Shown: piece by piece, positions 8,811 through 10,222 of the stretch
How positions within the stretch are numbered: the stretch's first letter is position 1
How the letters are laid out: every line of letters starts with the position of its first letter
Origin: Actinobacteria bacterium HGW-Actinobacteria-1
GTDB taxonomy: Bacteria; Actinomycetota; Coriobacteriia; Anaerosomatales; Anaerosomataceae
Direction: 5' to 3'
DNA: 64,000 nucleotides
Assembly (NCBI GenBank): GCA_002841355.1
Contig: PHFB01000003.1
Coordinates: forward strand, 62,001 to 126,000
Translations under genes and position numbers: made by a program
The notes under the pieces: generated by a model
Seen by the model: only the letters and a program-made list of their open reading frames with translations
Database searches by the model: none
Told to the model about the DNA's origin: nothing

Positions 8811-9191
8811 ATGGCAACTCCGTCGGAAGGCAAAGCGATGGCAAGCGACCGTTGGTCCCTGCGCAACATCTACCTGTACCTGGTATGCCTGATCACGCTC
8901 ATCATGATCATCGTCTCGGTGGTCAGCGTTATCCGCGCGACAGTCGAACTCGTGTATCCCGATCCGGGCTACTACTCGGTTCCGATCGAGAAGGGCGGTT
9001 CGACCGGCATGACGCAGGCCGAGATCGACGCCCAGAACGAGTCGCAGCGCAAGCAATCCCAGCGCCAGGCCGTGCTCAATCTTGTCGGCGGTGTCGCGAT
9101 GCTCGTTGTGGCCGGACCGCTCTACGCGTATCACTGGCGCAAGATCGAGACCGAGCGCCCGGTCGAAGCAACCGTGCCGCCAACCGCCTAA
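8811..9191 (+). CDS. Small two-helix membrane protein, DUF5671-like
   Basis: 126 residues if started at ATG 8811; an internal ATG at 8838, with GGAAGG 7 bases upstream, is at least as good a start and gives 117 residues beginning MASDRWSLRNIYLYL. One helix (about residues 20-45) is preceded by the aromatic YLYLVCLI stretch that recalls DUF5671 proteins. A hydrophilic loop with Gln/Ser/Lys follows, and a second helix lies near residues 88-105. No function is known. A glutaredoxin gene starts 27 bases downstream. Confidence 0.7.
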   Translation: MATPSEGKAMASDRWSLRNIYLYLVCLITLIMIIVSVVSVIRATVELVYPDPGYYSVPIEKGGSTGMTQAEIDAQNESQRKQSQRQAVLNLVGGVAMLVVAGPLYAYHWRKIETERPVEATVPPTA

Positions 9192-9218: not shown

Positions 9219-9464
9219 ATGTCCGTGATGCTGTATGCGCTTTCGACCTGCCCGTACTGCCGTATGACCCGCAAGTACCTGGAAGAGAACGATGTCGATT
9301 TCGACCTGCTCGAGGTCGACCTGCTGGAGGGCGACGAGCGCACCGCAGCGATCGCGAAGGTCAAGGAGATATCGGGCGGCTCATCGTTCCCGGTCATCGT
9401 GATCGACGACGAGACGATCGTCGGCTTCAACAAGAAGCGCATCAAGGAGCTGCTCGGCCTATGA
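9219..9464 (+). CDS. Glutaredoxin-like thiol-disulfide protein
   Basis: 81 residues, ATG with GAGAGGA upstream. The active site is CPYC (residues 11-14), then the cis-Pro motif SFPVIVIDD and the GFNKKRIKELL helix expected for a glutaredoxin fold. It overlaps the next gene by ATGA, so it is co-translated with a protein carrying a ferredoxin-thioredoxin reductase catalytic domain. That suggests the glutaredoxin is the reductase's substrate or partner, which is inference. The small size and CPYC centre agree with NrdH/Grx-type reductants. Confidence 0.9.
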   Translation: MSVMLYALSTCPYCRMTRKYLEENDVDFDLLEVDLLEGDERTAAIAKVKEISGGSSFPVIVIDDETIVGFNKKRIKELLGL

Positions 9465-10129
9465 GCAAGGGCAAGCCGGTCCGCCGCCGGTTCGATGAGA
9501 GCACGACGACCGCCGACCTCCGGAAGTACATGGCGCCGTTCGCCGACAGGCTGGGCTACAAGTTCAACACGGACGACGAGTTCGTCGAAGAGGTGCTCGC
9601 CTCGGAGATCGAGATACTCGATGCGACGGGTGACGTGTTCTGTCCGTGCCGCGTGCGCACGGGCGACCCGAAGGAGGATGCCAAGATCGTCTGTCCGTGC
9701 ATCCCCTTCTACCGGGACCAATTCGCGGGGCTCAAGAAGTGCTGGTGCGGGCTGTTCATCCTCAAGGAGGTCGAGGACGGTCTCGAGCTTCTCGGCGTGA
9801 TCGAGGAGCCGACGGGCGATATCGATGTGCCGGTTTTCCGTGTCGCCGATCTTCCCGACGGGCAGATCCGTCACGTGAAGGTAGGGAAGCACGATATCGC
9901 GGTCGCGCGCGTGGGAGACGAGTTCTTCGCGCTCTCCAACGTGTGCCGTCATGCGTTCGCCCCACTTGCCGAGGGGTTCATGGACGGCTACTACGTCATG
10001 TGTCCGTGGCACGGCTGGCGATACGACGTTCGCGATGGGTCGACCGACCATCCCGGAGCGAATGTGAAGACCCACGACATCACGGTGGTGGCGGACGAGG
10101 TTCGGGTGCGGATCTCACTCGGCCGGTGA
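9461..10129 (+). CDS. Ferredoxin-thioredoxin reductase catalytic-type domain fused to a Rieske [2Fe-2S] domain
   Basis: 222 residues. Residues 20-110 carry the six-Cys pattern of the FTR beta (catalytic) subunit as CPC (61-63), CPC (78-80) and CWC (94-96); plant FTR has CPC/CPC/CHC, where four Cys bind a [4Fe-4S] cluster and two form the redox disulfide. Residues about 122-222 are a Rieske domain with Cys162-x-His164 and Cys181-x2-His184 inside CPWHGWRYD. One protein therefore appears able to hold both a 4Fe-4S and a 2Fe-2S centre. The ATG overlaps the glutaredoxin stop. The likely job is passing electrons from a ferredoxin-type donor to dithiol proteins; whether the Rieske centre is the electron entry point is inference. 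Confidence 0.9.
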   Translation: MSKGKPVRRRFDESTTTADLRKYMAPFADRLGYKFNTDDEFVEEVLASEIEILDATGDVFCPCRVRTGDPKEDAKIVCPCIPFYRDQFAGLKKCWCGLFILKEVEDGLELLGVIEEPTGDIDVPVFRVADLPDGQIRHVKVGKHDIAVARVGDEFFALSNVCRHAFAPLAEGFMDGYYVMCPWHGWRYDVRDGSTDHPGANVKTHDITVVADEVRVRISLGR

Positions 10130-10189: not shown

Positions 10190-10222
10190 AGCCGTCCGGA
10201 GTATGGACTCCGGACGGCTTTC
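10190..10222 (+). terminator. Intrinsic terminator after the FTR-Rieske gene
   Basis: A perfect 12-bp stem AGCCGTCCGGAG / CTCCGGACGGCT with a 6-base loop is followed by TTTCC. It closes the glutaredoxin/FTR-Rieske unit and separates it from the liv operon. Confidence 0.85.

Follow-up and report, generated by a model that had tools for sequence, protein, structure and literature searches.

A Rieske domain fused to the catalytic domain of ferredoxin-thioredoxin reductase and paired with a glutaredoxin gene in an order of uncultured actinomycetotes

Results

The window, which is the whole stretch of 64,000 nucleotides analysed, was found to contain a gene in which the catalytic domain of ferredoxin-thioredoxin reductase (FTR) and a Rieske domain are joined in one chain, directly behind a glutaredoxin-like gene. 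The fusion and its pairing with the glutaredoxin gene were found to be conserved across the order to which the genome belongs. The best reading of the protein is a glutaredoxin reductase in which the Rieske domain would serve as the electron relay, to which we give a probability of about 0.6.

Domains and motifs of the fusion protein

The fusion gene (9461..10129, + strand) encodes a protein of 222 aa. It was found to match FeThRed_B (PF02943) at residues 20-106 with an E-value of 2.7e-19 (69.6 bits against a curated cut-off of 22), followed by Rieske (PF00355) at residues 123-197 with an E-value of 4.9e-19, far above the curated cut-off. Only FeThRed_B and Rieske-type families matched in Pfam, and no rubredoxin domain was found in the fusion. 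The FTR active-site segment (residues 61-96; 9641..9748, + strand), as aligned to 4tpu and 7pwe, was found to contain CPC-x14-CPC-x13-CWC, with the cysteines at C61-P-C63, C78-P-C80 and C94-W-C96. By homology to FTR, C61, C78, C80 and C94 are predicted to be the ligands of a 4Fe-4S cluster and C63-C96 to be the redox disulfide. The residue W95 occupies the place of the His of plant FTR or the Tyr of the rubredoxin-type enzymes.

The Rieske domain (residues 120-222; 9818..10126, + strand) was found to contain a CPWHGWRYD box, with the ligand pairs C162-x-H164 and C181-PW-H184 (C-x-x-H), and to lack the additional Cys pair seen in bc-type Rieske proteins. No second Rieske domain was found in the genome.

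The AlphaFold model of the full-length fusion had a pLDDT of 84 and a pTM of 0.80, with the FTR cysteine loop poorly modelled. The FTR domain predicted alone was found to resemble 7PWE (Z 10.7, 2.9 A, 101 residues), followed by 4TPU (Z 9.5, 3.0 A, 99 residues) and the plant-type FTR 1DJ7 (Z 7.9, 3.4 A, 92 residues). The Rieske domain had the fold of the dioxygenase Rieske ferredoxins, the best match being 2qpz (Z 14.8, 1.9 A over 97 residues).

Conservation and distribution

The homologues were searched in 61 genomes, the own genome and 60 relatives. The fusion was found nearly full length in 50 of them, in many genera, and one further copy was cut by a contig end; the identity of the fusion protein among relatives was 57-90%. 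Across the 50 aligned copies, no variation was seen at W95, at the six FTR cysteines or at the four Rieske ligands, the first CPC being counted in 49 of the 50 because one aligned copy is cut before the motif. The CWC motif was present in all 49 matched relatives. The description in the initial annotation of a single chain with all six FTR cysteines (CPC, CPC, CWC) and a full Rieske set is thus borne out by the Pfam matches and by the invariance of these ten residues, and chance domain matches were ruled out by the E-values together with the same invariance. According to the initial annotation, a fusion confined to this assembly and lacking in relatives would have counted against its reading, and this was found not to be the case; an assembly artefact or a one-off fusion was ruled out, since 50 copies were found in most of the order's families.

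In the class sample, an FTR match was found in 57/69 genomes of the order against two weak matches among about 229 others, so the FTR-Rieske protein is a trait of the order. In the phylum samples, no FTR-Rieske fusion was found beyond the order, and only the unfused arrangement of genome G585 was seen. A strict-peptide scan of genome contigs returned Coriobacteriia-type records only, together with one halophilic archaeal Rieske protein, and a search of plasmids returned only Rieske-level matches of low identity. The carriers are uncultured, non-photosynthetic bacteria.

The glutaredoxin gene and its pairing with the fusion

The glutaredoxin-like gene (9219..9464, + strand) encodes 81 aa and matches PF00462 with an E-value of 1.4e-14, far above the curated cut-off. 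Its active site was found to be STCPYC (C11, C14), and an SFPV loop was also present. The nearest PDB sequences were the glutaredoxins 3ic4, 3nzn and 5cax, and the glutaredoxin half of 7pwe matched as well. The stop of the glutaredoxin gene and the start of the fusion gene overlap by four bases, ATGA (9461-9464), so that a CPYC glutaredoxin overlapping a 222-residue protein was found as first described.

A glutaredoxin was found directly upstream on the same strand in 49/49 contigs reaching that far and at 7/7 further FTR-Rieske loci, 56/56 in total, which upholds the earlier claim of a linked gene for the likely substrate. The four-base overlap was found in 40 of the 47 pairs with called starts, and the others were found to have gaps of 1-38 bases. 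The glutaredoxin is most likely the substrate or partner of the FTR-Rieske reductase.

The GG-x-D motif of the glutathione site was absent from the glutaredoxins of the relatives (0/49) as well as from the window copy, and the glutamate-cysteine ligase families PF04107 and PF04262 were not found in the genome of the window. Glutathione is therefore unlikely to be the reductant, and a glutathione system was ruled out on these two grounds. TRX_reduct (TrxB) matches were found in 51/51 genomes tested, 46 of them above the cut-off; the unit is therefore not the sole route of thiol reduction, and a stand-in for a missing thioredoxin reductase was ruled out.

The gene ahead of the pair (8811..9191, + strand) encodes a small membrane protein that partially matches DUF5671 (Pfam PF18920, 1e-9), and lies 27 bases upstream of the glutaredoxin. 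Within the order, a DUF5671-like gene was found there in some members only, most of them belonging to the family of the window; it is possibly an operon member, though not a constant part. A perfect 13-pair GC-rich hairpin (10190..10219, + strand) was found 60 bases after the fusion stop codon, with an RNA fold of -31.3 kcal/mol (z -6.6), with no more than a short T run behind it. It is likely the end of the transcript; a consensus terminator scan made no call there.

Elsewhere in the order, the pair was found beside paraslipin/NfeD-like genes or branched-chain amino acid (Liv) transporter-like genes, and other variable neighbours were a cysteine synthase with an Rrf2-like regulator, NDH-2-like genes and multihaem-cytochrome-like genes, these names having been read from sequence and confirmed by profiles for part of them. 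The surroundings beyond the pair change, and the glutaredoxin/FTR-Rieske pair is therefore taken as the unit. A fixed larger operon was ruled out, as the pair alone is constant and the other neighbours come and go. No ferredoxin or ferredoxin reductase gene was constantly linked to the pair in the neighbour table.

Relationship to known disulfide reductases

The ferredoxin:disulfide reductase (FDR) of Methanosarcina acetivorans (4TPU) also carries an FTR catalytic domain and an extra iron domain in one chain, and it and its kin have been called ferredoxin-dependent disulfide reductases (PDB; PMC7278568, PMC6262447). The spacing in 4TPU and the actinomycetote relatives (L123-L150), CPC-x14-CPC-x12/13-CxC, was close to that of the window protein (CPC-x14-CPC-x13-CxC). 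The rubredoxin-type enzymes differ in having a rubredoxin where the window protein has a Rieske 2Fe-2S domain, and CYC (Tyr) where it has CWC. The FTR domain of the window protein was 21-29% identical to the aligned actinomycetote CYC/CFC sequences. In the other actinomycetote families, the FTRs were found to be of the CYC, CYU or CFC type, most of them carrying a rubredoxin-like domain at the C terminus. At 30/30 of the loci examined, the gene directly upstream on the same strand encoded a glutaredoxin of the same kind.

In the glutaredoxin/ferredoxin disulfide reductase of Desulfotalea psychrophila (7PWE), a glutaredoxin is followed by an FTR domain, collinear with both genes of the window, but as a single chain instead of two genes; it contains CYC, and the Rieske part has no match in it.

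The catalytic chain of plant and cyanobacterial FTR (1DJ7, 2PU9) was found to have the fold (Z 7.9) and the six cysteines in common with the window protein. The plant enzyme, whose substrate is thioredoxin, is a heterodimer with an alpha chain and contains a CHC motif with another cysteine spacing, whereas the window fusion contains CWC. The plant-type alpha subunit FeThRed_A was found in 0/51 genomes (the own genome and 50 relatives), with a positive Synechococcus control, so the FTR-Rieske protein is not the plant system. The contrast with plant FTR drawn in the initial annotation therefore stands, but its novelty does not, as non-photosynthetic organisms are already known to have FTR homologues with a fused iron centre (the rubredoxin of 4TPU and L123-L150) and FTR homologues with a linked or fused glutaredoxin (the 30/30 actinomycetote loci and 7PWE). 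The pairing of glutaredoxin and FTR with an iron centre built in is therefore of a known kind. What appears to be new, with less than certainty, is the Rieske domain in the place of the rubredoxin together with the invariant Trp in the place of the His or Tyr, a combination undescribed within the literature searched. The full-text searches returned no Rieske-FTR fusion, while FDR papers outside their coverage might mention one, and no biochemistry on any Rieske-fused FTR was found in them.

The dioxygenase Rieske-type ferredoxins (2QPZ, 1VCK) have the same Rieske fold and ligands as the fused domain, and both are without the bc-type Cys pair; they are separate carriers of oxygenases, whereas the genome of the window has no other Rieske domain that could be found.

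Several further FTR types were seen. In several genomes of other actinomycetote families, the rubredoxin-type FTRs (L130, L140, L143, L146 and L147) contained an in-frame TGA exactly at the last Cys of CYC (CYU), a candidate selenocysteine codon at the redox-disulfide position, and selenoprotein FTRs are already known (PMC2398784; NCBIfam FtrB_double_U). The FTR chains of L134, L143 and L146 contained two tandem, near-identical rubredoxin-like domains. The genome of the window was found to contain a second FTR, of the CHC type, on contig C26 (L071/L002), with no glutaredoxin beside it and with 2-hydroxyacyl-CoA dehydratase activase-like and subunit-like genes adjoining. No glutaredoxin neighbour was found at the seven CHC-type FTR loci checked.

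Proposed electron path and alternative readings

FTR-type enzymes are a rare case in which a 4Fe-4S cluster splits a disulfide in two one-electron steps. In the glutaredoxin reductase proposed here, the fused Rieske domain would hold a 2Fe-2S cluster and fill the place of the rubredoxin of the ferredoxin:disulfide reductases. It would take up electrons one at a time from a donor of low potential, most likely a ferredoxin, and relay them to the 4Fe-4S cluster bound by C61, C78, C80 and C94 beside the redox disulfide C63-C96, where Trp95 would stand in for the active-site His or Tyr. The FTR domain would then reduce the CPYC disulfide in the glutaredoxin translated with it, and the glutaredoxin may hand electrons on to cell proteins. 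The domains, the conserved ligands and cysteines, the pairing of the genes, their distribution and the kinship with rubredoxin-type FTRs are observed; we infer the binding of the clusters, the donor, the direction of flow and the reduction of the partner glutaredoxin. The initial annotation had proposed a self-contained iron-sulfur-to-dithiol relay; the fusion is real, order-wide and linked to its likely partner, but the relay would need an outside electron donor and the unit encodes none, so that it is not self-contained.

In the Prakash 2018 work, the fused rubredoxin of the M. acetivorans FDR is said to act as a relay, its Tyr reportedly fills the role of the FTR His, and the reduction of a glutaredoxin-like protein by the enzyme is said to have been shown. 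If so, that work would directly support the reductase reading.

The direction of flow is the point at which this reading meets its main difficulty. Rieske-type ferredoxins lie at about -150 mV (PMC1847435), above the usual dithiol potentials, so passing electrons from the Rieske domain to the disulfide would cost energy, barring a shift of the potential in this protein, and the same value leaves room for a reverse direction or a sensor role. A bolder and less likely description is that these proteins make up a separate class of iron-sulfur disulfide reductase. The Rieske cluster would then exchange electrons with an FTR-type 4Fe-4S/disulfide site in which Trp has taken the place of the essential His or Tyr, possibly from thiols to an acceptor.

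It is unlikely that the unit runs in reverse, with the dithiols of the glutaredoxin oxidised at the FTR site and the electrons leaving through the Rieske domain to a quinone, a cytochrome or another acceptor, as a thiol-oxidising or electron-disposal system. The flow from dithiol to Rieske would be the easier one at about -150 mV (PMC1847435), and in certain genera (clusters 12, 18 and 19) multihaem-cytochrome-like or NDH-2-like flavoprotein genes lie beside the pair. However, these neighbours are inconstant, with several of them divergently transcribed, and the nearest relatives that have been characterised are known as ferredoxin-dependent disulfide reductases (PMC7278568). The potential of the rubredoxin fused in those relatives poses the same energetic problem for disulfide reduction.

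It is quite unlikely that the Rieske domain lies off the electron path and turns the FTR domain on or off, either by sensing redox state, oxygen or nitric oxide or by serving as a docking module. The constancy of the fusion while the neighbours vary would fit such a role, as would an exposed 2Fe-2S cluster, since exposed clusters of this kind can be oxidised; but an electron carrier is the better fit to the C-terminal position, which in other FTRs is occupied by rubredoxin, itself a carrier of single electrons, and to the separate Rieske genes flanking the glutaredoxin and FTR genes of L114. Improbable too is an NAD(P)H-linked flavoprotein in place of ferredoxin as the donor, giving an NAD(P)H:Rieske:glutaredoxin system, for which the nearest solved Rieske relatives (dioxygenase ferredoxins fed by flavoprotein reductases), the lack of any second Rieske domain found in the genome and the NDH-2-like flavoprotein gene divergent to the pair at seven loci (cluster 12) speak, but no such reductase was linked at most loci, the window included.

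The rubredoxin-type and Rieske-type enzymes form a natural swap, in which the same catalytic domain and partner gene are found with rubredoxin or Rieske and with Tyr or Trp, and what the fused centre and the active-site residue each do is therefore directly testable. The unit suggests that in uncultured actinomycetotes iron-sulfur carriers supply thiol redox control, and it represents a possible Rieske function beyond oxygenases, nitrite reductases and bc complexes.

Origin of the fusion and other CWC types

In genome G585, of another class, the locus L114 was found to contain four separate genes, a Rieske gene (1667-1990), a glutaredoxin gene (1990-2244), an FTR gene of the CWC type (2237-2572) and a second Rieske gene (2574-2909). 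The FTR of L114 was 40% identical to that of the window, whereas the remaining unfused or rubredoxin types reached 21-31%. In the tree, it was sister to the fused FTRs (99/96) and all CWC types formed one clade (99/94), on 118 alignment columns, with a long branch for L114 and an unsettled bootstrap. This one incomplete genome suggests that the FTR-Rieske fusion arose from neighbouring genes.

The upstream Rieske protein of L114 (1667-1990) contained CAHMAC and CACH, with the extra Cys pair of bc-type (high-potential) proteins, and the downstream one (2574-2909) contained CPLHH, unlike the upstream copy. The L114 cassette comes after a formate/nitrite transporter gene.

The CWC motif was found not to be tied to the Rieske domain, as L115, L152 and L153 contained CWC without Rieske, two of them with an N-terminal rubredoxin-like domain. 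In L152 (4719-5277), the CWC-type FTR was followed, four bases on, by a small thioredoxin-like protein containing CPHC, a different arrangement of the partner.
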